From Scatophagus argus (lineage: Eukaryota; Chordata; Actinopteri; Scatophagidae): a DNA stretch of 64,000 nt. Positions 1,338 to 64,000 of this stretch are shown here, piece after piece (positions within the stretch are counted from its first letter, which is position 1; the number at the start of each line of letters is the position of its first letter). The stretch spans positions 15,300,249 to 15,364,248 of the forward strand of contig NC_058514.1 of the NCBI RefSeq assembly GCF_020382885.2. The letters run 5' to 3'. The notes under the pieces were generated by a model that did no database searches, was not told where the DNA came from, and was given only the letters and a program-made list of their open reading frames with translations. Made by a program: the position numbers and the translations under genes.

Positions 1338-3572
1338 ATGGCAGAGGACAGCAACAGCAGCAGTGACTCAGACGGGTTACTGGTCCCGAGCGATTATGAG
1401 ATAGTTGACTTTATTGAAAATGGGCTTGTTGAAGTCGTGGCAAAGTGCAAGAGAAAGGACACTGAAGAGCCTGTGGCCATAAAATTCTTGAGAAGTAGCA
1501 AGAGCGCGATGAAGGAGGTTGGTTAACTTATATAATTTGATGTTCACAGTTGCAAAAGAGCAGCAAATACCTAAACACATCCAACTTATCATGTATCCCC
1601 AGGTGTCCATTTTAGAAGAATTAATGAGACACAATCTGGATCAACACAACATTGTAAAGCTCTACAGCTGGTACCAGATGAAAAACACCATTGGTCTGGT
1701 GTTGGAATTGCTAGATATCACCCTTTGGGACTACATGAAGGGGGATCGTCTGCCTTTAAAGGATATCAGGCTCATCACAGAGCAGGTATGGAGGTAGTGT
1801 CACAAAGCAACATTTAACAATATATCCAATTTTAAAAATCTTTTCAAGCAGTTTTGAATTGTGTAACTGAACTTTTACCTGCAGATGGCCACAGCTTTAT
1901 ATGGACTGAAGAGTGTTGGAGTGATCCATGGAGATATAAAACCCAACAACATCATGCTGGTGAAGGATCAGGAGCAGTCCTTCACACTGAAGCTTATTGA
2001 TTTTGGCTTGTCATTTCATACATCTGAAGGTGTGGTGGGCACTCGTTACCAGGTACCTTATTACAGGTGAGGATTGGTTGACTTTCTTCTGGATTATGTT
2101 TGAAATTTCCCAGTTTTGCTATGAACAGAAACTTTGATGCTGTTTTTCTGCCACATTCAGAGCTCCAGAGATCATGCTAGGACTTCCCTTCAATGAAGCC
2201 ATTGACATGTGGTCTCTTGGCGCTGTGCTGGGCTTCATGATGTTTGGAGAGCTCATCTTCCCATGGTTCTGTGAATATAATCTGGTAAGCAATTTACTAA
2301 TTTTTTTCTAATGGATCCAATAATACTGCATCCACATACCAACTCTCAGCCTCAGTTCAATCATGTAAAGAATGACTGGGCTGGATCTCATCATCCCTGT
2401 TGAGTGCTTTGGATGTGAGTCCGTGTTTTGTCTCCAGATGCAGTCTATTTGTGAAATCTTGGGCCAACCAGCAGACCATCTTCTCAATGCTGGTCTAAAA
2501 ACAAGCGAGTTTTTCATCAAGACCTCTGACAATAAGTTTACCCTCATGACACATGACCAGTATTGGAAAAACAAGATTTCCTTTGGCAACAAGAAATTTG
2601 CCTTCAGCTCTCTGGACGATCTGAAGGTGGTAAGTAGTTTAGTAGGTTGTAGTTGCTAAAAAGTGACTCTCACTGATTCTCTTTTCATGAATCAGGAGTA
2701 ACTTGACTGCTGATGCATTTGATTTCAATATTAGTTAGGCAAGGAGCTGGGGAATGAAGCTGAGGGATGGGGGCAGTGTGTTGAACTGCTGAAAGCGATG
2801 CTCAAGGTGGATGCCAGTGAGAGGATCACCCCCAGTGAGGTCCTTAGGCATCCCTTCATCACACAGAGCTACCTGAATGAGAATCAGCAGCCAGCAGCAG
2901 ATGAGCCCAGAACCAGTCAGGCCTCAACCGACCTCAGAAGCATAGAGTCTGTGTCTGATGCTGATGACAGGTACAGCAGCTATTGAGCTACTGAATCATC
3001 TCTTTCTGAAGCCATAGATGGTGTCTTCAAATCAAACTCAAATCTTCTTTCTGTTGGAGACCCACACTGACAAACACTGCAGCCTTGTAGCTGTGAGAAA
3101 CATTTACACAATCCTCCTGAATATACTATACTGTATGCTATAATCAACTCTCTGTGTGTTTGTGTGTGTGTTCAGTATCAAGGCTGACCAAACTGAAGAT
3201 ACTCAAAGTGACAGAAACCACTTCAGTGACGTACTGCGTTGTAAAACTCTAGTGCTGGATGCTGACCCTCCTGGCAGTGATCAGGACACCAGTGCTCCTG
3301 AGGAGATCCAGTCGATCATCACAGAACTAGAGGAGACCATATCAGGTACAAAACAGACACCTCCACTTGAGCCCAAAATGACATCCACAGTGTTGTTAAT
3401 TCTACCACTAACAGCCAAAATATTTGTTTGTTTTTCAGATGACAGCAAGGCCCATGAGGAGACCAAGAAGAAGAAGAAGAAGAAGAAGAAGAAGAAAAAC
3501 TGCATCAGACGCTTCTTCTCATGGATGAGGAAGACATTTTGCTTTTGTAGTTCAACAAAAGTTCAGGACTAG
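1338..3572 (+). CDS. HIPK-like protein kinase, divergent paralogue (gene 1), 8 exons
   Basis: Predicted 466-residue Ser/Thr kinase. Exons by splice consensus and phase: 1338-1517, 1603-1785, 1885-2066, 2161-2284, 2438-2629, 2735-2970, 3176-3345 and 3439-3572 (stop TAG). The kinase domain spans about residues 20-328: VAIK Lys49, alpha-C Glu60, catalytic loop HGDIKPNN (Asp138), DFG at 160-162, YYRAPE at 180-185, then a GLPF..AIDMWSLG stretch and LKTSEFF, both typical of the HIPK family. Oddities: the glycine loop reads IENGLVEV, so the usual glycines are lost or displaced; HRD is HGD; the activation-loop Tyr is shifted by one residue. The tail holds an acidic/Ser-rich linker, 11 lysines, then a basic Cys-rich end (CIRRFFSWMRKTFCFC). 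Catalytic residues persist, so it may be active, but a weak or pseudo-kinase is possible. Retention of the intron after 2970 would stop at 2986 (370 residues). Confidence 0.85.
3465..3497 (+). repeat. (AAG)10 microsatellite coding poly-lysine
   Basis: Ten AAG codons plus AAA in the last exon of gene 1 encode 11 consecutive lysines just before the Cys-rich terminus. The run is likely length-polymorphic but stays in frame with unit-length changes. Confidence 0.9.
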
Positions 3573-3693
3573 ATGACAAAGATGGTAACCTTATTAGCCC
3601 AAATACAGAATGAAGAATCAATGCATAATCAGTATGCTTAAAACAAAATAATTCACACAAATAAGCATAACACTACACACTTTCTGATACTTC

Positions 3694-3701
3694 CTCCACT
3701 C
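3694..3701 (+). repeat. Left 8-bp target-site duplication (CTCCACTC)
   Basis: CTCCACTC directly abuts the left terminal inverted repeat of MITE copy 1. The identical octamer abuts the right end of MITE copy 3 at 26685-26692. Eight base pairs is the usual hAT target-site duplication length. Confidence 0.75.
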
Positions 3702-4269
3702 CAGGGACGTGCAGAGACCTCTGGTGGGGCAGGGGCTCAGTTTATAAAAAAGGGCACAAAACATTTCAAGCAATTGAACTTTATTTAAAACTGAATTTCA
3801 ATAACAACTTAATTTCTCCATGAGGTTGCTCTACATTACACAACCCAACGCAAAAAACAGCCCTAAACAATGTATTAACTTGTCCTTTCACGAATCATAC
3901 AACATGAATGGTCAGAAAAGGAATGAACACTGATTCACTGCGACCTTACCATGCGCCTCTCCTTCTTGCATCGTCTCACTTGATGGCCGCGTGCACACGC
4001 TTTCGATGGGTTCGCTGACCATGTGACGTCATGAATCGTGGCCGCAAGGTATTTAGGTGTAAAACGTTTTTCCCCCAAATGTATAACTTCGCATATGATT
4101 TAGGAGACATTGTGGAGAACTTAGCTGTTGGAACTCATTTATTTATTAAAAAAATAATAATAATAATAATAAAAAAAAAACCAGCCCTGTCAAAAGGGCA
4201 CTTTGAATGTCCATCAGGAAAAGGGCAGGTGCCTGAGCCCCTGTAGCCCCCCTTATCTGCACGTGCCTG
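3702..4269 (+). mobile_element. hAT-like MITE, copy 1 (complete)
   Basis: A 568-bp non-autonomous element with terminal inverted repeats: left CAGGGACGTGCAGA, right end TCTGCACGTGCCTG (13 of 14 complementary). The CAG-start termini suit the hAT superfamily. It contains a TGACGTCA site at 4024-4031 and an A/T-rich AAT-repeat tract near 4150-4180. Short open frames inside are not recognisable as transposase. The right flank runs directly into L2-like sequence. Confidence 0.75.
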
Positions 4270-4712
4270 GAAGATAGTGTAGACAGATTTAGGGATGCAA
4301 TCCCATCACAGCTCCCCTCAGCACCATGTACCAGTACAACAGACCGTACTGATTTAAATGTTACTCCTGCAGCAATTGATTCTTTTGTTAATAACACTGC
4401 AGCCACGTTGCACACAGTTTTACTTATCTTTTTAGTAATGTCATTTCTCATGTTGTTAACTGCTTTCCTGCCTGTACAACATCCATTGCACGTCTGCCCG
4501 TCCTGGGTGAGGGATCCCTCCTCTGTTGCTCACCCTGAGGTTTCTTCCATTTTTTCCTGTTAAAGGTTTTTCTGGGAGTTTTTCCTTAGTCGATGTGAGG
4601 GTCGAAGGGCAGAGGATGTTGCTGATGTTATGTTGAGCCCTTTGAGACAAACTGCTTGTAAAAATGGGCTATACAAATAAAGTTGACTTGACTTGACTTG
4701 ACATAGAAACTG
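4270..4712 (+). mobile_element. L2-like LINE fragment, ORF2 piece joined to 3' end
   Basis: Bases 4275-4440 match, with a few changes, the LINE endonuclease-region sequence at 29396-29545. From about 4441 the sequence is a LINE 3' UTR ending in an ATACAAATAAAG signal and a GACTT simple-repeat tail (4680-4701), as in fish L2-clade elements. An internal deletion joins the two parts. The fragment is present in unit 1 only; unit 2 lost it together with the MITE right end. Confidence 0.65.
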
Positions 4713-6842
4713 CCCCCCCCCAGGACACACATCCATACACACATCTTATTTTTATGTTTAATGAAGTTACATTTGGTTTTCACATCAGGGGCCTCAAAAC
4801 ACAGGACTAGTTACTCATAAAATGTGGAAATGATCTGATCTCTTTTTTTGGTGGACTTGACATTGAGTGATCGTCCTGCTGGTTATGTAGGGGTACTGCA
4901 GTTTTGGACACATGCGTCCAAAGCTTTATGAACAGTGTGATATCATCAGTCAAACTGTGAGGAATGAGCAGACCAACAGTCATTATTTTTTGGACACACT
5001 GCATCAATTTTGCGTTTGAAGTTAGACCGTTTCTTTGTAAAGTCATCAGCTTTTCTGCTCCAGCTCGGCTCTCAAGCTGCGTGTTTGGCTTTGCTTTCAC
5101 GTTACAGTCCACTGAATAAGACGTGTCGTCTGGCTTCTGCCTCCTCTGCCGTCCATGTGATCGCAGCCCTCATTTGTGTTATGAGGTGAAATCACAAGGC
5201 AGGTGCAAGTTGATTTAAGATTCATAGATCACATGTGCTTAAATTACAAACGCACTGAAGCTGCTTATGGTTTTTTTTATGCTCAGCATCTTTTCTGAAT
5301 CAAATGTAAGTCAGAAATGATCTTAGAAGACTAAGTTTTGAGACTTCAGCTTAAACCAAACCAACCAACCAAACCAAATTCAGCTTCCTGACGTCCCAAG
5401 ACTTGTGATGTCAGAAAGCTGAATTTGGTTTCTCTTGATTTAATGGGCATTTTGTGCTTGAGAGACTTTGCTTATTAACCATTTGACTTCACTGCGAGAC
5501 TGAACTGATGGGACTGAAGTGATGTGTGGGTAAAGTAACATCACAGCAACGTCTCATGAGATGTATGAGGTCGTTTTTGACGGCCTAACTTCACACGCAG
5601 GCTTCGTCTCGTTGTTTGCGTTACTGAGCAAATACAGACAGCAAATTTCCACAGACGCGTGTCAGTCACGTTAACCTCCGCTGTCAGCTTCGTGATTATC
5701 GTCTGAATATGGGAGGAAGAGACGGTCAGAGCTCAAACAATATGAAACCCATCCTAACTGCGGAGACACCTGACGCTGCAGTGTCTTGTAGCTGAAAGGT
5801 TGCAGTTTGACCCTCGTGTCGAGTCACAATGCCCTTGTGTAAAACACTCAACCGTTTCTTCCTCACTCGCTGTCAGATATTTTCAGTCGCAGGTTTTTTC
5901 TGCTCTGGAAAGCAGTCTGTCTGCAGTCCAGCAGCAGCAGCTGTGGGGGCACAGAAGTAAAGTCTTTATTTCATACACTCTTCATTTTTATTCTTTGTTT
6001 TTGTGCTTTGTACCTTTTAAAACTCATCAATTTTTGATTGATTTGATTTTGAATGATTTCAAAATCATTGGGTGTGCTGAAGGTCATTTCCAAACACGTT
6101 TGTCCTTAAAATCTGTGAGGAATAAATACTATGTGCATATACTTAAACCTTAAATCACATTTTCTTAAATATGAGAAATGGGAGCAGAAACAACAGTGTT
6201 GCTTTTGTATTTTTCATGGGTGTAGTTAAGTCCAGCGGGTCCCAGACGAGGGGTCGGTCCCACCAGAGGGTCATCAGATACCTCTGAGAGCTGAGGCAAC
6301 TGAGGGGGGGCATTTTGATACAAGTTCATATTTAATCTTTCTAATCTTTGATTGTTTTGTGAAGGATTGGATGATTTTACCTCTTGCTGCTGTGATGTGA
6401 GCAGTTTAAAGGGGAAAAAAAAATCATTAGAAACTAAAGTACAATGTTTGACTCTACAATGCAGTGGAATAGGTTTTTTTTGGTGTAATCTGGTATTTCT
6501 GACTTCCCAGTGACATGTGGGCAGTTGGTGGACATTTTGCACTGAACAGAAACTCATGAAATGTCATAAAAAATAAAAAACATGTCTTTCAAGCATACAG
6601 TACACACTGTACATAGTGTTTCATGGAGACATAAAGCTGATTCTACCTGCGGAATGTTAGAACGTGTGACTGTCAAAGACTTTAGAACTCTGTGATGTCA
6701 CAAAGGCCTGCAGGGTTCAGATCAGTCCGTTCTGCGGTTCTGCTCTCACTTTGTTCGAGTGAGTTTCAGCACGAGGACAAACCTTTCAGACATTTCAGTT
6801 TCGACACGGTGAACGAGACACGGAGAAACACCAAGCAACAAG
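4713..6842 (+). other. Unit 1 upstream spacer and 5' flank of gene 2
   Basis: Sequence shared almost base for base with unit 2 (15683-17813). Open frames at 5800-6153 (+) and 6165-6557 (-) are judged non-coding: a 2-base indel between the copies near 5778 breaks the surrounding frame, and there is no splice context. It includes the hairpin at 5372-5430. The last 150 bases are the likely 5' leader and core promoter of gene 2. A CRE-like TGATGTCA lies at 6693-6700, and no TATA box is obvious. Confidence 0.5.
5372..5430. repeat. Inverted repeat (hairpin), unit 1
   Basis: Left arm 5372-5392 and right arm 5410-5430 are complementary at 20 of 21 positions around a 17-base loop. The left arm starts AACCAAATTCAGCTT and the right arm ends AAGCTGAATTTGGTT. 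It could be a relic of a tiny palindromic element. It is kept in unit 2 at 16341-16399. Confidence 0.8.
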
Positions 6843-11291
<4,449 letters not shown>

Positions 11292-11425
11292 ACAGTTTGC
11301 CAGCACTCACACTTGAGATTAATTTGTTTTAAATCAGTTTAGCCGAAATTGTTATGTGATATGAACATAAGATGCAACAAGCAATCAATTCTGTCTCTTT
11401 ATCTGTGAGTACATATGTCCAACAG

Positions 11426-11589
11426 ATGGGAACATACTGCGATACTCTGAGGACACTCCAGCAGCATCTCTAAAGAAGTCCAGACTGCTCATCTCCAGAC
11501 ACGACGAGGAAGAGGAAAAGGAAACAGAAGAACCTGGATGGAACATAGACAGTTTGCCAGCACTCACACTTGAGATTAATTTGTTTTAA
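11426..11589 (+). CDS. Alternative terminal exon (acidic tail) of gene 2
   Basis: After an acceptor-like TCCAACAG, a phase-1-compatible frame runs to TAA at 11587-11589. It encodes GNILRYSEDTPAASLKKSR followed by an acidic stretch (EEEEKETEE) and a hydrophobic end. Exon 12 ends in the right phase to join it, giving an isoform that bypasses exons 13-14. The same DNA repeated at exon 14 is read in a different frame as a basic tail. The splice is inferred from consensus and phase only. Confidence 0.4.
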
Positions 11590-11682
11590 ATCAGTTTAGC
11601 CGAAATTGTTATGTGATATGAACATAAGATGCAACAAGCAATCAATTCTTTCTCTTTATCTTTGAGTACATATGTCCAACAG

Positions 11683-11806
11683 ATGGGAAAATACTGCGAT
11701 ACTCTGAGGACACTCCAGCAGCATCTCTAAAGAAGTCCAGACTGCAGCTCCACATAGTGGAAGAGGATGAAGATGAGCTGGGATGCAGGTGGACAAACAC
11801 ATACAG
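11683..11806 (+). CDS. Alternative internal exon candidate downstream of gene 2
   Basis: Second copy of the alternative exon, with acceptor CCAACAG and donor AG|GTAGGC. It encodes GKILRYSEDTPAASLKKSRL followed by an acidic stretch (VEEDEDELG), leaving phase 2. A possible following exon lies at 12954-13065 but would stop after three codons. Expression is not shown by the sequence. Confidence 0.3.
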
Positions 11807-14800
11807 GTAGGCTCATCTATGGCAACTCACTCTCAGGATCGGCTGATTCTCAATCAGTTCACTTCTTAGTGTCTTTAGGTGTTTCATCATTAGCAAGAAT
11901 TTATTTACATTTATTTATCATTAGCAAGAACTTAGCAAGATGAATTGACCCTGAACACTCACAGACAGCTTGACTCATTAAGCTCAGTTTTACTCAGTAT
12001 GAGGCGCACTGATGTATAACATCTTCTGTGGTCCTGGAGGACATTTTCCAAACTTTTATGAAATAACCCTGGTGATTGTGTCAGGGTTTTTTCTTCTTTG
12101 ACATGAGGCTTAAAAGTTATTCATGGTAAGCTTGATGTAGAGATTGAGAGAAGTTGGCAATTGAAGGGATGGAGGGTCTAAATGAGGATGCCACCAGGCC
12201 GCATTATGGAAATTACTTCTTCGGGCACCCACCAAGATGGATATTAAGTGTTTTTAATTATTGGCAGCAGGGCACAACTCCCCTGCTGCTATTACAGGCT
12301 GCCTTCAGTCCTAATAAAGGCCTGTAGCAAACACCACAGCCTGCTGATGTCCACCTCCCGTAATAATCATCTTCAAATGGAGCAGGTTGTAGCTTAAAAT
12401 AGTGGAGTTAATGGTTTAAAATTTGACACAAACAGTGACAAGTTTTCCTGACTAAACATCATATTTTATTAGCTCATACCAGACAAGTGTAAGTATAAGG
12501 CAGATGCTGCTGTGAGGTTTTCAGATTGCCGCTGTTGTATGTTGGATAACGATGATGTGAAGATGTTGAAAGAGAGCTGCGCTGTCTTGCTTGCATAAAA
12601 AGATTAAAGCAGTCCAGCATCAATTACATGCATGTGAGTGGATTCAGGCCAATACAACCACACTCCTGAATCATCTCTAACCCTCTGCTTTTATAGGTTG
12701 GTTGTTTACAAGAAAAGGGGAGCATTCATCTAGACATGGACCCTTCCAATACACAAAGAGAAGGGGAAGAGAGACCACCTTCCTATATCACACATACCTT
12801 TGAAACTTGGGACGCCTATCTAAACATGGGCTTTGAACATATAAAGGGCCTCAGAAAAAACATCATTCTAGTCTCCAAAATCCCTACTACACTGCTGCTT
12901 TTTCACATTGGTGCCTCTTTACAGTAATCATGTTTGTCTCTGCATGATCCCAGGCCATCGCTGTAACATCAGCCGCTCTTCACCTGAGAGCTACGCGAAG
13001 GAAGGACCAGAAATGGACTGCAGGGAAGCACAGAAGAAGGAGCAACGAACACCGGGAGATAAACGGTAACGCCTGCATTGACTTAATTAGCAGCACCAGG
13101 CTTGTCTTTTTGGCCCATCGACACTAAACAGTCCCTGGAAGGGGGTTTCCTCTTGTGCGAGCCTTCCCAAGGTTTCTTCCAGACTCTCCCGTTAAAGGGG
13201 TCAGTTTGGGAGTTTTTCCTTGCCCGCTTGAGGGAGGTGTCGTAATCACGTGGGCTTGAGATTAATATTACTTGATAGTTTCCGGCCTGGTGTTTTAACA
13301 GCATTTAATTTTACCTGTTACCACAGCTCATAAATAAGATAGAAGACTGTAGTGTATAATCTAGTTCAGGGCAGCACGGTGGTGCAGTGGTTAGCGCAGT
13401 CACCTCACAGCAAGGCCAGGGTCTTCCTGTGAAGGCCCGGGACTTCCTGTGAGGAGTTTGCATGTTCTCCCCGTGTCTGCGTGGGTTTCCTCTGGGTGCT
13501 CCAGCTTCCTCCCACAGTCCAAAGACATGCAGGTTAATTGGTGACTCTAAATTGCCCCTTGAACAACCATGCAACAGATAGGTGGTGACAGATAATGCAT
13601 TATTGTAAAGTATAGCGTGCAGGCGTTACTTTTAGACATATTCATAATTCATAATTTCTGATAAATCTGACAACAAATTAAAAAGAAATGATTAAAATGG
13701 ATGTAAGACTGTCAGTTTCAGGAATGTTCTGCATTTTAAGTAGTAAAATAAGAAGTGTTGTCCCAATGATTGCAAAGAGGTTTTATTCTTGAACAAAGTG
13801 TCTAATGTGTGAAACACTCACTTGAAGCTGAACCTGTAGATGGCTTCCAGAGCTGTGCATCGACAACGCAGCTTAACATCCATCGACTTCAGGTTTAATT
13901 AGCATGAGTAATACAGGCTTTTCAGCCTTTTCATGATAAATTTACTTCAAAATGGATTCATCAGGGTTTCAGAAATTTCATAATTCCTGTTCATAGTATT
14001 TACATTATTTAGAAGTTGGGAGCTGATAATTAAAATTATTTTCTGTATGATTTTAAAATGGCATAAAATGTGTAATGGCATAACACGTGGCATGTGCAGC
14101 ACCGCTTTTCAAAAAAAATCCTCCTCCTCCTCAGGGGATTTTGCATGAAGAAGACTAATGTGACCTTGTTTGGCCATCTCACACTGTTGATACCTCAAAT
14201 TTCCTCTGGCTGGACACCTTTTGGACAGAAGGACTGTGGATTTTGTCTCATTTCTTACACTGGTGCTGCACTGGGAAGGGTGTGCTTTGCAGCCAGTGCG
14301 GAGAAGAAGAACGACTACAGGAACCAGTAGCTCTGCCAAAGTACATACGGGCATGTTAATGTTGTGCCAAGATAGCCTTGAGAATATCTGAACTTATCCT
14401 TTAACACTAAACAAGGGTACAACATAATATAGCATCTCATTTCTATGTGTAGCCAACAACATTCCTCTGAAGTGAGCTCCAAGGCCTGATTCTCTTCTCG
14501 GTACCATGTGTTTGTTATGGACCGAACTAATTAAAATAGGTACAAGGTAGTCTGTATGTATGTATAGAGATGTAGGCCATAAAATGACCCCAGGCCTGCT
14601 GTTGCACACTCACAGACAGGCTGTAATGTGTTCATTCTAGATGTTAGAAGTGTAATGATGGAACAACAACAACAGCAATTTGATTCATGCGTCGGTCGCT
14701 CTGTTCTGATGCTATAAAGAGGTCTTAATTGCATGATTCTTGTGTAGCTGCTAACATAAACTGGCAAACTCTGATTTAGCTGCTCTAATGTTTTCTTTCA

Positions 14801-15141
14801 CACCTTATTTGTTCTGATGCACAAATAAGGTAAGTGAGCCAACCAAAAGGCCGCATTAATACAAAAATAAAGACGGTAAAACCACTTCACTGTCAGAATA
14901 ATGGACCCAGTCATTGATCATGAAACAGATCACAGATCAGATCACTTTTTGGTTTTTTTATTCCTTTTGCATTTGTTGTGAAAAATAATGAAATTGCTTT
15001 TGTAGGCAGCCATTTCTACCCCATGAGCTCTGTGTGTGTGTGTGTGTGTGACACACTTCCCCAGAATGTTTCATAATTAACATGACACACACATACATAT
15101 CAGTGTGGCTCATGCATCAACAGATCAAGCTTCTTCCTATG
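11807..15141 (+). other. Unit 1 downstream spacer
   Basis: No firm gene. It holds a LINE 3'-UTR-like fragment (about 13132-13241), a SINE-like repeat (13369-13563), a (GT)10 run at 15031-15050 and small open frames (12736-12927, 14094-14330) that lack splice or family support. An exon-like interval at 12954-13065 is bounded by CAG and GTAACG; its reading frame is uncertain. The segment is duplicated at 22763-26106. Confidence 0.5.
13369..13563 (+). mobile_element. tRNA-derived SINE-like repeat, unit 1
   Basis: It starts GGCAGCACGGTGGTGCAGTGG (an A-box-like TGGTGCAGTGGTTAGC) and continues through the fish-typical GGAGTTTGCATGTTCTCCCC and ACAGTCCAAAGACATGCAGG blocks to TAAATTGCCCC. It belongs to the same family as the reverse copy at 41725-41978 and the fragment at 27148. 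Copy 2 of the unit carries it at about 24333-24526. Confidence 0.65.
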
Positions 15142-15690
15142 CAGGGACGTGCAGAGACCTCTGGTGGGGCAGGGGCTCAGTTTATAAAAAAGGGCACAAA
15201 ACATTTCAAGCAATTGAACTTTATTTAAAACTGAATTTCAATAACAACTTAATTTCTCGATGAGGTTGCTCTACATTACACAACCCAATGCAAAAAACAG
15301 CCCTAAACAATGTATGAACTTGTCCTTTCACGAATCATACAACATGAATGGTCAGAAAAGGAATGAACACTGATTCACTGTGACCTTACCATGCGCCTCT
15401 CCTTCTTGCATCGTCTCACTTGATGGCCGCATGCACACGCTTTCGATGGGTTCGCTGACCATGTGACGTCATGAATCGTGGCCGCAAGGTATTTAGGTGT
15501 AAAACGTTTTTCCCCCCAAATGTATAACTTCGCATATGATTTAGGAGACATTGTGGAGAACTTAGCTGTTGGAACTCATTTATTTATTAAAAAAATAATA
15601 ATAATAATAATAATAAAAAAACCAGCCCTGTCAAAAGGGCACTTTGAATGTCCATCAGGAAAAGGGCAGGTGCCTGAGCCCCTGTAGCCC
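15142..15690 (+). mobile_element. hAT-like MITE, copy 2 (right end deleted)
   Basis: Left terminus intact (CAGGGACGTGCAGA) at the unit junction, flanked on the left by TTCCTATG. The right terminal repeat and the adjoining L2 fragment are missing: the sequence passes from CTGTAGCCCC straight to AGGACACACATCC. Relative to copy 1, 470 bases are lost between two C-runs. Confidence 0.75.
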
Positions 15691-17813
15691 CAGGACACAC
15701 ATCCATACACACATCTTATTTTTATGTTTAATGAAGTTACATTTGGTTTTCACATCAGGGGCCTCAAAACACAGGACTAGTTACTCATAAAATGTGGAAA
15801 TGATCTGATCTCTTTTTTTGGTGGACTTGACATTGAGTGATCGTCCTGCTGGTTATGTAGGGGTACTGCAGTTTTGGACACATGCGTCCAAAGCTTTATG
15901 AACAGTGTGATATCATCAGTCAAACTGTGAGGAATGAGCAGACCAACAGTCATTATTTTTTGGACACACTGCATCAATTTTGCGTTTGAAGTTAGACCGT
16001 TTCTTTGTAAAGTCATCAGCTTTTCTGCTCCAGCTCGGCTCTCAAGCTGCGTGTTTGGCTTTGCTTTCACGTTACAGTCCACTGAATAAGACGTGTCGTC
16101 TGGCTTCTGCCTCCTCTGCCGTCCATGTGATCTCAGCCCTCATTTGTGTTATGAGGTGAAATCACAAGGCAGGTGCAAGTTGATTTAAGATTCATAGATC
16201 ACATGTGCTTAAATTACAAACGCACTGAAGCTGCTTATGGTTTTTTTATGCTCAGCATCTTTTCTGAATCAAATGTAAGTCAGAAATGATCTTAGAAGAC
16301 TAAGTTTTGAGACTTCAGCTTAAACCAAACCAACCAACCAAACCAAATTCAGCTTCCTGACGTCCCAAGACTTGTGATGTCAGAAAGCTGAATTTGGTTT
16401 CTCTTGATTTAATGGGCATTTTGTGCTTGAGAGACTTTGCTTATTAACCATTTGACTTCACTGCGAGACTGAACTGATGGGACTGAAGTGATGTGTGGGT
16501 AAAGTAACATCACAGCAACGTCTCATGAGATGTATGAGGTCGTTTTTGACGGCCTAATTTCACACGCAGGCTTCATCTCGTTGTTTGCGTTACTGAGCAA
16601 ATACAGACAGCAAATTTCCACAGACGCGTGTCAGTCACGTTAGCCTCCGCTGTCAGCTTCGTGATTATCGTCTGAATATGGGAGGAAGAGACGGTCAGAG
16701 CTCAAACAATATGAAACCCATCCTAACTGCGGAGACACCTGACGCTGCAGAGTGTCTTGTAGCTGAAAGGTTGCAGTTTGACCCTCGTGTCGAGTCACAA
16801 TGCCCTTGTGTAAAACACTCAACCGTTTCTTCCTCACTCGCTGTCAGATATTTTCAGTCGCAGGTTTTTTCTGCTCTGGAAAGCAGTCTGTCTGCAGTCC
16901 AGCAGCAGCAGCTGTGGGGGCACAGAAGTAAAGTCGTTATTTCATACACTCTTCATTTTTATTCTTTGTTTTTGTGCTTTGTACCTTTTAAAACTCATCA
17001 ATTTTTGATTGATTTGATTTTGAATGATTTCAAAATCATTGGGTGTGCTGAAGGTCATTTCCAAACACGTTTGTCCTTAAAATCTGTGAGGAATAAATAC
17101 TATGTGCATATACTTAAACCTTAAATCACATTTTCTTAAATATGAGAAATGGGAGCAGAAACAACAGTGTTGCTTTTGTATTTTTCATGGGTGTAGTTAA
17201 GTCCAGCGGGTCCCAGACGAGGGGTCGGTCCCACCAGAGGGTCATCAGATACCTCTGAGAGCTGAGGCAACTGAGGGGGGGCATTTTGATACAAGTTCAT
17301 ATTTAATCTTCCTAATCTTTGATTGTTTTGTCAAGGATTGGATGATTTTACCTCTTGCTGCTGTGATGTGAGCAGTTTAAAGGGGAAAAAAAAATCATTA
17401 GAAACTAAAGTACAATGTTTGACTCTACAATGCAGTGGAATAGGTTTTTTTTGGTGTAATCTGGTATTTCTGACTTCCCAGTGACATGTGGGCAGTTGGT
17501 GGACATTTTGCACTGAACAGAAACTCATGAAATGTCATAAAAAATAAAAAACATGTCTTTCAAGCATACAGTACACACTGTACATAGTGTTTCATGGAGA
17601 CATAAAGCTGATTCTACCTGCGGAATGTTAGAACGTGTGACTGTCAAAGACTTTAGAACTCTGTGATGTCACAAAGGCCTGCAGGGTTCAGATCAGTCCG
17701 TTCTGCGGTTCTGCTCTCACTTTGTTCGAGTGAGTTTCAGCACGAGGACAAACCTTTCAGACATTTCAGTTTCGACACGGTGAACGAGACACGGAGAAAC
17801 ACCAAGCAACAAG
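15691..17813 (+). other. Unit 2 upstream spacer and 5' flank of gene 3
   Basis: Near-identical to 4721-6842, including the hairpin (16341-16399) and the likely promoter and leader of the kinase gene. No independent gene is supported; open frames here change by indels between the two copies. Confidence 0.5.
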
Positions 17814-22064
<4,251 letters not shown>

Positions 22065-22174
22065 CATGTCCAAAGAGTCACAGCGTGACGAAAAGTAGGT
22101 ATTACATCACAACCCCGTTTTCATTAGATTGTACTCTTGGAGCAAAAGATTTAAACAACATTTGATCTGTGCAG

Positions 22175-22762
22175 AAACCCAGACTGCTCATCTCCAGACA
22201 TGCCGAGGAAGAGGAAAAGGAAACAGAAGAACCTGGATGGACCATAGACAGTTTGCCAGCACTCACACTTGAGATTAATTTGTTTTAAATCAGTTTAGCC
22301 GAAATTGTTATGTGATATGAACATAAGATGCAACAAGCAATCAATTCTGTCTCTTTTTCTGTGAGTACATATGTCCAACAGATGGGAAAATACTGCGATA
22401 CTCTGAGGACACTCCAGCAGCATCTCTAAAGAAGTCCAGACTGCTCATCTCCAGACACGACGAGGAAGAGGAAAAGGAAACAGAAGAACCTGGATGGAAC
22501 ATAGACAGTTTGCCAGCACTCACACTTGAGATTAATTTGTTTTAAATCAGTTTAGCCGAAATTGTTATGTGATATGAACATAAGATGCAACAAGCAATCA
22601 ATTCTGTCTCTTTATCTTTGAGTACATATGTCCAACAGATGGGAAAATACTGCGATACTCTGAGGACACTCCAGCAGCATCTCTAAAGAAGTCCAGACTG
22701 CAGCTCCACATAGTGGAAGAGGATGAAGATGAGCTGGGATGCAGGTGGACAAACACATACAG
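22175..22762 (+). other. Gene 3 terminal exon 14 and alternative 3' exons
   Basis: Counterparts of gene 2's last exon (22175-22247), the acidic-tail exon (22382-22545) and the internal candidate (22639-22762), with the same 257-bp tandem duplication. With gene 3's extra A, exon 12 no longer joins the acidic exon in frame but can join exon 14 directly. Confidence 0.45.
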
Positions 22763-25700
22763 GTAGGCTCATCTATGGCAACTCACTCTCAGGATCGGCT
22801 GATTCTCAATCAGTTCACTTCTTAGTGTCTTTAGGTGTTTCATCATTAGCAAGAATTTATTTACATTTATTTATCATTAGCAAGAACTTAGCAAGATGAA
22901 TTGACCCTGAACACTCACAGACAGCTTGACTCATTAAGCTCAGTTTTACTCAGTATGAGGCGCACTGATGTATAACATCTTCTGTGGTCCTGGAGGACAT
23001 TTTCCAAACTTTTATGAAATAACCCTGGTGATTGTGTCAGGGTTTTTTCTTCTTTGACATGAGGCTTAAAAGTTATTCATGGTAAGCTTGATGTAGAGAT
23101 TGAGAGAAGTTGGCAATTGAAGGGATGGAGGGTCTAAATGAGGATGCCACCAGGCCGCATTATGGAAATTACTTCTTCGGGCACCCACCAAGATGGATAT
23201 TAAGTGTTTTTAATTATTGGCAGCAGGGCACAACTCCCCTGCTGCTATTACAGGCTGCCTTCAGTCCTAATAAAGGCCTGTAGCAAACACCACAGCCTGC
23301 TGATGTCCACCTCCCGTAATAATCATCTTCAAATGGAGCAGGTTGTAGCTTAAAATAGTGGAGTTAATGGTTTAAAATTTGACACAAACAGTGACAAGTT
23401 TTCCTGACTAAACATCATATTTTATTAGCTCATACCAGACAAGTGTAAGTATAAGGCAGATGCTGCTGTGAGGTTTTCAGATTGCCGCTGTCGTATGTTG
23501 GATAACGATGATGTGAAGATGTTGAAAGAGAGCTGCGCTGTCTTGCTTGCATAAAAAGGTTTATTACAAAGCAGTCCAGCATCAATTACATGCATGTGAG
23601 TGGATTCAGGCCAATACAACCACACTCCTGAATCATCTCTAACCCTCTGCTTTTATAGGTTGGTTGTTTACAAGAAAAGGGGAGCATTCATCTAGACATG
23701 GACCCTTCCAATAAACAAAGAGAAGGGGAAGAGAGACCTCCTTCCTATATCACACATACCTTTGAAACTTGGGAGGCCTATCTAAACATGGGCTTTGAAC
23801 ATATAAAGGGCCTCAGAAAAAACATCATTCTAGTCTCCAAAATCCCTACTACACTGCTGCTTTTTCACATTGGTGCCTCTTTACAGTAATCATGTTTGTC
23901 TCTGCATGATCCCAGGCCATCGCTGTAACATCAGCCGCTCTTCACCTGAGAGCTACGCGAAGGAAGGACCAGAAATGGACTGCAGGGAAGCACAGAAGAA
24001 GGAGCAACGAACACCGGGAGATAAACGGTAACGCCTGCATTGACTTAATTAGCAGCACCAGGCTTGTCTTTTTGGCCCATCGACACTAAACAGTCCCTGG
24101 AAGGGGGTTTCCTCTTGTGCGAGCCTTCCCAAGGTTTCTTCCAGACTCTCCCGTTAAAGGGGTCAGTTTGGGAGTTTTTCCTTGCCCGCTTGAGGGAGGT
24201 GTCGTAATCACGTGGGCTTGAGATTAATATTACTTGATAGTTTCCGGCCTGGTGTTTTAACAGCATTTAATTTTACCTGTTACCACACAGCTCATAAATA
24301 AGATAGAAGACTGTAGTGTATAATCTAGTTCAGGGCAGCACGGTGGTGCAGTGGTTAGCGCAGTCACCTCACAGCAAGGCCAGGGTCTTCCTGTGAAGGC
24401 CCGGGACTTCCTGTGAGGAGTTTGCATGTTCTCCCCGTGTCTGCGTGGGTTTCCTCTGGGTGCTCCAGCTTCCTCCCACAGTCCAAAGACATGCAGGTTA
24501 ATTGGTGACTCTAAATTGCCCCTTGAACAACCATGCAACAGATAGGTGGTGACAGATAATGCATTATTGTAAAGTATAGCGTGCAGGCGTTACTTTTAGA
24601 CATATTCATAATTCATAATTTCTGATAAATCTGACAACAAATTAAAAAGAAATGATTAAAATGGATGTAAGACTGTCAGTTTCAGGAATGTTCTGCATTT
24701 TAAGTAGTAAAATAAGAAGTGTTGTCCCAATGATTGCAAAGAGGTTTTATTCTTGAACAAAGTGTCTAATGTGTGAAACACTCACTTGAAGCTGAACCTG
24801 TAGATGGCTTCCAGAGCTGTGCATCGACAACGCAGCTTAACATCCATCGACTTCAGGTTTAATTAGCATGAGTAATACAGGCTTTTCAGCCTTTTCACAA
24901 TAAATTTACTTCAAAATGGATTCATCAGGGTTTTCAGAAATTTCATAATTCCTGTTCATAGTATTTACATTATTTAGAAGTTGGGAGCTGATAATTAAAA
25001 TTATTTTCTGTATGATTTTAAAATGGCATAAAATGTGTAATGGCATAACACGTGGCATGTGCAGCACCGTTTTTCAAAAAAAATCCTCCTCCTCCTCAGG
25101 GGATTTTGCATGAAGAAGACTAATGTGACCTTGTTTGGCCATCTCACACTGTTGATACCTCAAATTTCCTCTGGCTGGACACCTTTTGGACAGAAGGACT
25201 GTGGATTTTGTCTCATTTCTTACACTGGTGCTGCACTGGGAAGGGTGTGCTTTGCAGCCAGTGCGGAGAAGAAGAACGACTACAGGACCCAGTAGCTCTG
25301 CCAAAGTACATACGGGCATGTTAATGTTGTGCCAAGATAGCCTTGAGAATATCTGAACTTATCCTTTAACACTAAACAAGGGTACAACATAATATAGCAT
25401 CTCATTTCTATGTGTAGCCAACAACATTCCTCTGAAGTGAGCTCCAAGGCCTGATTCTCTTCTCGGTACCATGTGTTTGTTATGGACCGAACTAATTAAA
25501 ATAGGTACAAGGTAGTCTGTATGTATGTATAGAGATGTAGGCCATAAAATGACCCCAGGCCTGCTGTTGCACACTCACAGACAGGCTGTAATGTGTTCAT
25601 TCTAGATGTTAGAAGTGTAATGATGGAACAACAACAACAGCAATTTGATTCATGCGTCGGTCGCTCTGTTCTGATGCTATAAAGAGGTCTTAATTGCATG

Positions 25701-26106
25701 ATTCTTGTGTAGTTGCTAACATAAACTGGCAAACTCTGATTTAGCTGCTCTAATGTTTTCTTTCACACCTTATTTGTTCTGATGCACAAATAAGGTAAGT
25801 GAGCCAACCAAAAGGCCGCATTAATACAAAAATAAAGACGGTAAAACCACTTCACTGTCAGAATAATGGACCCAGTCATTGATCATGAAACAGATCACAG
25901 ATCAGATCACTTTTTGTTTTTTTTATTCCTTTTGCATTTGTTGTGAAAAATAATGAAATTGCTTTTGTAGGCAGCCATTTCTGCCCCATGAGCTCTGTGT
26001 GTGTGTGTGTGTGTGACACACTTCCCCAGAATGTTTCATAATTAACATGACACACACATACATATCAGTGTGGCTCATGCATCAACAGATCAAGCTTCTT
26101 CCTATG
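22763..26106 (+). other. Unit 2 downstream spacer
   Basis: Near-identical to 11807-15141, including the LINE 3'-UTR-like fragment (24094-24203), the SINE-like repeat (24333-24526), the exon-like interval beginning at 23916 and a GT run at 25996-26014. No gene recognised. Confidence 0.5.
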
Positions 26107-26684
26107 CAGGGACGTGCAGAGACCTCTGGTGGGGCAGGGGCTCAGTTTATAAAAAAGGGCACAAAACATTTCAAGCAATTGAACTTTATTTAAAACTGAA
26201 TTTCAATAACAACTTAATTTCTCGATGAGGTTGCTCTACATTACACAACCCAACGCAAAAAACAGCCCTAAACAATGTATTAACTTGTCCTTTCACGAAT
26301 CATACAACATGAATGGTCAGAAAAGGAATGAACACTGATTCACTGCGACCTTACCACGCGCCTCTCCTTCTTGCATCGTCTCACTTGATGGCCGCGTGCA
26401 CACGCTTTCGATGGGTTCGCTGACCATGTGACGTCATGAATCGTGGCTGCAAGGTATTTAGGTGTAAAACGTTTTTCCCCCCAAATGTATAACTTCGCAT
26501 ATGATTTAGGAGACATTGTGGAGAACTTAGCTGTTGGAACTCATTTATTTATTAAAAAAATAATAATAATAAAAAAAAAAACAAACAAAAAAAAAACAGC
26601 CCTGTCAAAAGGGCACTTTGAATGTCCATCAGGAAAAGGGCAGGTGCCTGAGCCCCTGTAGCCCCCCTTATCTGCACGTGCCTG
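26107..26684 (+). mobile_element. hAT-like MITE, copy 3 (complete)
   Basis: Both termini are present (CAGGGACGTGCAGA ... TCTGCACGTGCCTG), with TGACGTCA at 26429-26436 and a longer A-rich internal tract than copy 1. The left flank is TTCCTATG, as at copy 2; the right flank is CTCCACTC, as at the left of copy 1. It closes the duplicated array. Confidence 0.75.
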
Positions 26685-26692
26685 CTCCACTC
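26685..26692 (+). repeat. Right 8-bp target-site duplication (CTCCACTC)
   Basis: Exact copy of 3694-3701, abutting the right MITE terminus. Together they mark the ends of the composite block. Confidence 0.75.
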
Positions 26693-27147
26693 GGTTGTCC
26701 ATGCAAACACACAAAAATGATGGAAGTAGTTGTGTGAAGACGGAAACTGAAAGAGGTAATTCAAATCCTACATGTCAAAATCAGAGAGGCACTTTGTTTT
26801 AAGCATACTGAGTTATGGTGAGACTATGTAACATTTGCTTTACAGTAGTCATTCTGGCCAAAACCAGTGGCAATCATAAAATGACGATACAGGACAAAAC
26901 AGCATAAAAGTAGCATAAAAAGAGAGAAGTCAACAATTAAAATACTCAGTAATGTCATTAGCACAGCAATATCCGTCCAATATTTGCTAACATTAACTAA
27001 CAGCTATATAAGCTATATAAGCCACTGGTCAAACACTGAGCAAGAACCCCACAGTAGTGAAGGGTTTTATTTCTTATGAATTTGCCTTTTCATTTGCAAG
27101 AGGAAAAATGTGTTGTTCTTTGAAAAGTTACATAGTCTCACTTTAGA
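26693..27147. other. Unannotated right flank of the composite block
   Basis: AT-rich single-copy-looking sequence with no exon or repeat that I recognise. It should be what followed gene 1 before the block arrived. Confidence 0.4.
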
Positions 27148-29184: not shown

Positions 29185-30372
29185 TGGTTTCCTTCAGACA
29201 GTAAATTAACCAACACACTGTCATAATCACACCCTGGATCTGGTTCTCACCTATGGCCTAGAAACTAAGAACCTGTTAGTTGTCCCTCAAAACCCTCTCC
29301 TTTCAGACCGTTCCCTTCTAACTTTTGAGCTAACTCTTACAGACTTTACTGCACACAACAAAAAGGTCTACTATACCAGATGCCTCTCTGAGAATACTGT
29401 AGACAGATTTAGGGATACAATCCCATCACAGCTCCCTTCAGCACCATGTACCAGTACAACAGAGCTTACTGATTTAAATGTTACTCCTGCAGTAATTGAT
29501 TGCCTTGTCAACACTGCAGTCGTGTTACACACAGTTTTAGTTATGGTTGCTCCACTGAGAAAGAAGGTTAAAAATCATAGGAGGCTAGCTCCTTGGTATA
29601 ATTCAAATATACGAACACTGAAGCAAACATCAAGATGAATGGAGAGGAAGTGGGACTCCTCCAAATCAGTTGAATCCCAGAGGGTCTGGAAAGATTGTCT
29701 ATTGGCATACAAAAAGGCCCTTCGTAAAGCCAGAACAGCTTATTATTCATCATTAATAGAGCAAAACAAGAACAACCCACGTTTTCTCTTTAACACTGTA
29801 GCCAGGCTGACAAAGAGTCACAGCTCTGTTGAGCCTTGTATTCCTGCAGCTCTTAGCAGTGAAGACTTCATGAGTTTCTTCACCAATAAAATCAATAACA
29901 TTAGAGAAAAAAATCAATAAAGATCTCCCCAGAATAGCCGATATACTGCCAGAAACCTCTTTTAGTCCTACTCCATCTCTGGACAGCTTCCTGCCCATAG
30001 ACCTCCCTGAGCTGACCTCCAGCATTAACAAATCTAACCCAACTACACGTCTCTTAGACCCCATCCCAACTAAGCTCCTCAAGGGCGTCTTTCCCTTGAT
30101 TGGCCTTTCCTTCTTAGATCAGATCAACTTGTCTTTAACAACAGGTTATGTACCACAGGCGTTTAAGACTGCTGTTATCGAGCCTTTTTCACTTGACCCA
30201 GACATCTTAGCAAACTATACTCCGATATCCAACCTCCCATTTGTGTCTAAAATATTTGAAAGAGTGTTTAAATTAAACCAGCATGTGATTTTTTGTAATT
30301 CTGCCCTACTGTGCTGTGTTACACCTCGCTCACCTCAAACCATTCTATCAACATCTAGTGGTGGTCAGTAGG
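29185..30372 (+). pseudogene. L2-like LINE ORF2, endonuclease C-terminal part to RT start
   Basis: Segments read PTHCHNHTLDLVLTYGLET, RCLSENTVDRFRDTIPSQ, then after frame changes VWKDCLLAYKKALRKARTAY and LTTGYVPQAFKTAVIEP, the last leading into the reverse transcriptase domain. The catalytic RT core is absent, since the match ends near 30300. Several frameshifts occur (for example near 29638 and 29920). Dead copy. Confidence 0.65.
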
Positions 30373-63712: not shown

Positions 63713-64000
63713 AAAAAAAATTGTGACTAAAATATAAAAAATATACTCAGAGTGGAGCATTTTAAGAAATTGAAGAAATTTCAAAATATACCCTCTAGTG
63801 AACAAACTGTACAGTGATGGTGACGCCATCTCAGAATGATTTCACTGACGTTTCTGGACTGACTAATTCTTTCTTTCTTTCAACATTTCTTTCTTTTCAG
63901 CAGAGTGTCCTTTTGAATTTGGTTACTAAACAATTGTGACTAAAATATTTGGAGTGGAAAATGTTAAAGACTGAAGAAATTTCAAAATCTACCCTCTGGT
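63713..64000 (+). repeat. Two imperfect direct repeats about 220 bp apart
   Basis: TTGTGACTAAAATAT ... GAAGAAATTTCAAAATATACC at 63720-63795 recurs as TTGTGACTAAAATAT ... GAAGAAATTTCAAAATCTACC at 63934-64000. This may be the start of a satellite-like or transposon array cut by the window end. Confidence 0.6.

Follow-up and report, generated by a model that had tools for sequence, protein, structure and literature searches.

A probable natural hAT macrotransposon with a kinase gene in the genome of the fish Scatophagus argus

Introduction

How does a block of host DNA some 23 kb long, with a kinase gene inside it, come to be bordered by miniature inverted-repeat transposable elements (MITEs) and, outside these, by an exact 8-bp repeat? 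The question is raised by a 64,000-nucleotide stretch of the Scatophagus argus genome (the window; C22:15300249-15364248), in which such a block occupies positions 3694-26692 and consists of two long units interspersed with three near-identical elements of about 568 bp (MITE 1, 2 and 3). The initial annotation of the window regarded the 8-bp repeat as a sign of hAT transposition and offered two models: macrotransposition, with transposase acting on the outer ends of MITE 1 (left) and MITE 3 (right), or recombination of a MITE-bearing circle into an older, solitary MITE. By comparing the block with the rest of the assembly (570.7 Mb, 48 contigs), we found that the first model accounts for the data far better. 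We consider it highly probable (roughly 0.9) that the block is a hAT macrotransposon, that is, host DNA between two direct copies of a non-autonomous hAT element, moved whole by transposase supplied in trans.

Results

All features of the block lie on the plus strand, and positions given without a contig are those of the window. An octamer search and comparison of loci confirmed that the octamer CTCCACTC abuts the outer ends of MITE 1 and MITE 3 exactly, at 3694-3701 and 26685-26692. These are its only plus-strand occurrences in the window, and its reverse complement occurs once, at 63750. MITE 1 (3702-4269), at the left end of the putative macrotransposon, is a short-form element of 568 bp reading CAGGGACGTGCAGA ... 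TCTGCACGTGCCTG; MITE 3 (26107-26684) forms the right end. As annotated, the inner MITE borders do not match each other, being GAAGATAG at 4270 and TTCCTATG at 15134 and 26099. Between the outer elements lie unit 1 (4270-15141), MITE 2 (15142-15691), which has lost its 3' 19 bp, and unit 2 (15692-26106). Taken each with part of the following MITE, the two units are 99.2% identical over 10,997 alignment columns.

A genome search with the DNA of MITE 1 (best 40 of 216 candidates scored) revealed short-form clusters on C1 and C10, and five further loci turned out to hold the same composite, giving, together with the window (C22), six loci and 11 units. Perfectly matching (8/8) outer octamers, given here in element orientation, flank the two units of the window (CTCCACTC/CTCCACTC), the single unit of C10a (C10:21276246-21288760; GACCCATG/GACCCATG) and the three units of C1a (C1:5962317-5990099; GTCTCAAG/GTCTCAAG). 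The two units of C10b (C10:21577731-21606483) lie between CTCCTGGT and CTCCTGAG, which agree at 6/8 positions. C10c (C10:22017034-22048689), likewise with two units, has the left octamer GTCCTGGT and a right MITE that breaks off at position 483 of its 568. C1b (C1:26902725 onward) has the left octamer ATTGCCTG, a left MITE only and one unit, which stops 6 bp short of the expected MITE; no long terminal repeat emerged when the adjoining 6.2 kb on its right side were compared with themselves.

Complete MITEs are present at both ends of the trapped DNA at C22, C10a, C10b and C1a, and the duplicated block ends exactly at a MITE terminus on both sides at four loci and on the left at C10c and C1b. 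The loci with both outer ends span from 12.5 to about 29 kb. Three of the four that keep both outer MITE ends have perfect octamer pairs, each pair different from the others, the fourth being the 6/8 pair of C10b. The chance of an 8/8 match at a fixed position is about 1 in 65,536, and when the right octamer was shifted by 1-20 bases, the best agreement was 5/8 at C22, 6/8 at C10a, 4/8 at C1a and 4/8 at C10b. BLAST with low-complexity filtering revealed no similarity between the 1.5-kb flanks of the six loci at an E-value of 1e-5. Thus, the composite inserted independently with its own 8-bp duplication, perfect at three loci and imperfect at the fourth, and the package travelled as a whole to no fewer than three sites, probably six. 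The initial annotation had proposed that the unit be sought elsewhere beside other 8-bp duplications; GACCCATG at C10a and GTCTCAAG at C1a are exactly that. Coincidence was also considered for the matching octamers and was rejected in view of the different perfect pairs at other loci. As a separate observation, the left octamers of C10b and C10c, CTCCTGGT and GTCCTGGT (C10:21606484 and C10:22048690), have seven bases in common within otherwise unrelated flanks, which may hint at a target preference.

As judged from sequence, the elements are assigned to the hAT family, because solitary relatives are flanked by 8-bp duplications and a related element of 2.3 kb codes for a hAT dimerisation domain. 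Twelve solitary relatives were fetched, four of which had no left end within the fetched stretch. The eight with two scored ends comprised five with a perfect 8-bp duplication, one with 7/8, one with 1/8 and one with 2/8. The last score, that of a relative on C15, stems from a wrongly placed left end; measured from the correct one, the duplication is perfect, with TTCCCACC on both sides. The perfect duplications of the solitary relatives are of sequences other than CTCCACTC. CTCCACTC is not part of the MITE family; had it been, the proposal would have fallen by the terms of the initial annotation. The C15 relative (C15:21720145-21722423; 2,279 bp) has the same ends as the MITE and encodes a 238-residue frame in which the hAT C-terminal dimerisation region was recognised (PF05699, E-value 1.1e-7). 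The terminal inverted repeats, left CAGGGACGTGCAGA against the inverse of right CAGGCACGTGCAGA, agree at 13/14 positions, counted by eye.

The MITE itself is a short non-autonomous element (568 bp) without a transposase frame of its own. Three long-form copies that were fetched measure 974-993 bp. The short form is devoid of a segment of about 400 bp, which in the three long forms resembles the last 51 codons of the 238-residue frame; a Pfam search with this 51-residue transposase tail alone gave no match. In a search with a stretch contiguous in the short form only (best 40 of 61 candidates scored, with full-length matches heading the list), all 16 full-length short-form matches fell inside the six loci, and all 16 copies, the outer ones included, are 487-594 bp long. 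On C15 we also observed, at 16239369-16275948, seven copies of this hAT transposase C-terminus at intervals of about 5.5 or 6.35 kb. They appear to belong to a tandemly repeated larger unit of which this hAT relic is a part, possibly a second composite.

The origin of the trapped DNA could be traced to C9. Apart from the arrays themselves, one place in the genome gave a near-identical match to the kinase-bearing part of the unit, C9:23616589-23619370 (98%; 9/9 candidates scored), the other matches being three of 72-80% over about 100 bases or fewer on C7 and C8. At C9 a short segment X (23613196-23613513; about 0.3 kb) is followed by a long segment Y (23613506-23624697; about 11.2 kb), which includes the kinase gene; the two overlap in one TTCCTATG, and no MITE is present there. 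The mobile units read MITE-Y-X-MITE. The trapped DNA is therefore a head-to-tail permuted C9 segment, a point on which the initial annotation needs correction. The Y/X fusion is present in 11/11 units and was found nowhere else, and both of its sides are unfused at C9 (14/14 candidates scored). In unit 1 it lies at 15006/15007, where C9:23624697 is joined to C9:23613196, and in unit 2 at 25971/25972; the join is blunt as far as visible. In the window, TTCCTATG stands before MITE 2 (15134-15141) and before MITE 3 (26099-26106), and at C10a, C10b and C10c it makes up 10/10 inner MITE borders, so that these borders represent the two sides of one MITE insertion. C9 is thus the donor, with an empty MITE site holding one TTCCTATG. 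Within X, the units differ from C9 by an inverted piece of 54 bp (C9:23613398-23613451, beside TG repeats) and by the absence of about 158 bp next to it. Either orientation may be the ancestral one; the inversion could be a trace of template switching when the composite was formed.

The cargo gene encodes a HIPK-like kinase. Comparison of the joined exons with PDB sequences gave HIPK3 (7o7i, E-value 7.7e-69) and HIPK2 (6p5s, E-value 3.4e-67), and a Pfam search with single kinase-region frames gave no kinase family. The exons of unit 1 lie within 7236-9100 (approximately 7236-7463, 7555-7746, 7955-8143, 8239-8367 and 8918-9100), those of unit 2 within 18209-20073, and the five exon stretches are open in unit 1, unit 2, C1b and C9. 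The C1b copy has HTDLKP in place of HADLKP and deletions downstream. Only these three mobile units, two at C22 and one at C1b, retain kinase DNA; in the other 8/11 (five on C10, three at C1a) the kinase domain is mostly or wholly lost. An exon-1 remnant persists in the first units of C10b and C10c and a 16-residue piece in the second unit of C10c, and no kinase match was found in C10a, the second unit of C10b or the C1a units. Changed codons between C9 and unit 1, unit 2 and C1b are nonsynonymous and synonymous in ratios of 7:2, 6:3 and 7:4, respectively, counted over the five exon stretches, the edges of which may include a few non-exon codons; they do not support purifying selection and are too few for such a claim. 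The suggestion that a host signalling gene had been moved or amplified therefore holds in part. The package was dispersed; any amplification of a working kinase appears to be confined to three extra copies in which the examined exons are open.

The insertion site of the block itself could be examined in a paralogous locus (L030, around C22:15007778-15011017), 0.3 Mb away. L030 matches the left flank (2189-3671) at 98.8% over 1,484 columns and the right flank (26750-27006) at 93% over 259. When the window flanks were joined with one octamer, 332/344 aligned bases were identical to L030, with the flanks contiguous, and three exact MITE end motifs sought in L030 were absent. L030 is an empty locus, not a clean single-octamer site, and it may never have held the element. 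The gene to the left of the insertion (1600-2875) likewise encodes a HIPK-like kinase, though a distant one (32% identity over its longest matching piece); L030 has a near-identical copy of its tail, and the macrotransposon starts about 0.8 kb past the last kinase match.

The units differ little in sequence. In a comparison of their tails (11 rows; the middle C1a unit was left out owing to a split match, and the C9 and C1b rows are partial), the C10 units diverged from one another by 0.19-0.49%, the C22 pair by 0.34% and two C1a units by 0.31%; comparisons among the C10, C22 and C1a groups, C1b and C9 gave 0.62-1.19%. Such low divergence between loci fits recent dispersal from one ancestor. 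The left ends are of two kinds. That of the C10 units is structurally ancestral. C22, C1a and C1b have in common a joint of the MITE with GAAGATAG; the GAAGATAG site lies 3.3 kb inside a C10-type unit and is joined exactly at the MITE terminus. This joint would result from a second MITE insertion at GAAGATAG or from a transposase-made deletion.

Discussion

Our analysis supports macrotransposition because independent copies of the composite carry their own target-site duplications; the use of MITE 1 for the left end and of MITE 3 for the right one, as first proposed for the window, agrees with this. The history of the block may have run as follows. A short-form MITE would formerly have resided at TTCCTATG on C9. 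Y, to the right of this MITE, would then have been joined to X, just to the left of it, yielding MITE-Y-X-MITE, either through transposition-coupled re-replication and end joining, the mechanism put forward for Composite Insertions of maize, or through tandem duplication or a dimerised circle, two routes that fit about equally well. The resulting composite would have transposed by its outermost ends, acquiring a fresh 8-bp duplication at each site. Three loci with perfect duplications document this step, and we infer it for the three others, where the partner is decayed or missing. Finally, unequal exchange between MITEs or between units probably produced the two to three tandem units at four loci, while units shed pieces, the kinase being among the losses in 8/11.

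Several observations weigh against this reading or complicate it. A perfect octamer pair is present at only 3/6 loci, C10b having 6/8, C10c a truncated right MITE and C1b none. The MITE insertion at the C9 donor has to be postulated, as present-day C9 carries no MITE. Among matches of at least 80% identity (54/54 candidates scored), there was no transposase copy with an open frame above 238 residues, and one two-ended solitary relative is without a duplication (the 1/8 case). In L030, deletions of 14, 24 and 27 bp around the site have taken most of the octamer, and no clear excision footprint was seen. The trees are also difficult to accommodate. In the tail tree rooted on C9, the C10 units fall together with C1a instead of outside the class with the MITE-GAAGATAG joint (the support of 86 refers to the unrooted split of C10 and C1a), and two trees of the left part give almost no resolution here but likewise do not set C10 apart from the other units. 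This pattern is at odds with the order implied by structure and with a simple stepwise history, and would require gene conversion or two alternative left ends; gene conversion among units is likely.

The closest competition concerns not the movement of the composite but its birth. The first MITE-Y-X-MITE could have arisen by tandem duplication or from a dimerised circle of a one-MITE C9 segment, with macrotransposition following afterwards. Within the macrotransposon explanation we give this origin only slightly less than even odds. A head-to-tail duplication of C9:23613196-23624697 yields exactly the observed Y/X fusion. However, no tandem copy is left at C9, where the one near-identical kinase match outside the arrays resides (9/9 candidates scored), and the inverted 54-bp piece and the loss of about 158 bp in X look more like template switching at a broken fork, even though the inversion cannot be polarised. 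The other conceivable origin is a bolder proposal, which we put forward tentatively and rate as somewhat less probable than its opposite. In this scenario, transposition-coupled re-replication of a host locus around a lone hAT MITE generated an animal macrotransposon in one step, and the product went on to behave as a stable gene carrier that spread, lost cargo and grew in tandem. An origin from a single MITE would, by analogy with alternative-transposition models, need transposon ends on sister chromatids.

Other explanations dispense with macrotransposition altogether. In the circle model, homologous recombination inserted a MITE-bearing circle into a solitary MITE already present at each site, and the octamers are the duplications of that old MITE. 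MITE-unit-MITE structures, matching outer octamers and tandem units would be expected here as well, and the units are indeed circularly permuted relative to C9. Nevertheless, all 16 short-form MITEs lie inside arrays and none is solitary (best 40 of 61 candidates), a long-form target would have left a long-form end, which none of the 16 copies has at 487-594 bp, and the same event would have been needed at several sites, every one of them already occupied by the rare short form. We therefore regard this model, the second of those originally offered, as very improbable. Ordinary segmental duplication, with the MITEs as passengers and the octamers coincidental, deserves even less credence, since the tandem units and deletions typical of it do not explain why the block stops exactly at MITE termini or why flank-specific perfect duplications are present at three loci, where they refute it if the junctions are correctly assembled. 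Equally little speaks for an assembly artefact: long near-identical repeats are prone to misjoining and the reads could not be inspected, but the composite occurs in six places on three contigs with different flanks, with different matching octamers at three, and its units differ by 0.2-1.2% in the tail.

Having returned to macrotransposition, we may ask how the block relates to known systems. Macrotransposons of the maize element Ac were reportedly described by Huang and Dooner (2008) and Wang et al. (2022). In PMC9910405, Ac macrotransposons include one of 10.3 kb that reinserted and one of 28 kb that was excised with a footprint. The likeness is close: the elements are hAT, the outer ends of two of them act as one transposon, and the duplication is 8 bp long. 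At C22, C10a and C1a, the outer termini of two direct elements likewise lie within one duplication, and the same unit is found at six sites with unrelated flanks. The maize cases were in genetic stocks with Ac, whereas here the ends are those of MITEs in a fish, the cargo includes a host kinase gene, and six loci hold one to three units each. Composite Insertions of maize, according to PMC4270019, consist of Ac termini with 8-bp duplications around re-replicated flanks fused at their broken ends. Here too, transposon termini at an 8-bp duplication enclose donor flanks fused end to end, a fusion present in 11/11 units; unlike in maize, the process is deduced from structure, the inversion within X adds complexity to the junction, and the product spread on. 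By analogy, the block would be a natural hAT macrotransposon on the plan of the maize Ac Composite Insertions.

Pack-TYPE transposons hold captured DNA within a single element, between its own two terminal inverted repeats. At C22, C10a, C10b and C1a, by comparison, a complete MITE borders the captured DNA on either side. The resemblance to Pack-TYPE elements (PMC8903248) is that host coding DNA travels on non-autonomous DNA transposons; the difference is that here the gene lies between two whole MITEs, with introns and flanks, rather than inside one element. Teratorn (PMC10175614) is similarly a very large fish element built on a DNA transposon, but it is a 180-kb piggyBac-herpesvirus fusion, whereas the present element has hAT ends and cargo from the C9 host locus. 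The accounts of macrotransposition and of Composite Insertions considered here come from maize (PMC9910405 and PMC4270019), and among the titles and abstract openings listed in searches of open-licence papers, none dealt with a hAT macrotransposon from a vertebrate.

A single animal genome displays the stages of the process: a donor with an empty site, a fusion junction, single- and multi-unit insertions, and distinct duplications. Miniature non-coding elements would thus have taken 12 kb or more of DNA, in some copies with an intron-bearing host gene, to new chromosomes, which points to a route by which genes get copied there. A permuted segment between MITE copies, together with an outer 8-bp duplication, offers a signature to look for in other genomes. 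Were the one-step birth by re-replication true, re-replication from transposon ends would be a general and unrecognised source of dispersed duplicate genes in animals.

Other features of the block

Unit 1 begins with a LINE-like 3' remnant of 448 bp (4270-4717), which starts exactly at the MITE terminus with GAAGATAG and precedes the permuted C9 segment. The remnant is mostly missing from the C9 donor and was deleted from unit 2 together with the end of MITE 2. Part of it (4274-4427) matches 29394-29544 at 88%, a stretch included in an open frame at 29210-29638 that looks like part of a LINE protein; both LINE labels reflect recognition by eye, without a repeat-library search. Further along unit 1, a segment of 257 bp is present in two tandem copies (11223-11745) and is possibly an exon of the C-terminal part of the gene. 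At C1a, a related segment of about 400 bp, matching positions 6810-7229 of the unit, is repeated in 7-8 tandem copies in each of the three units (for example, C1:5966296-5969159), a copy number far above that of the two 257-bp copies at C22.

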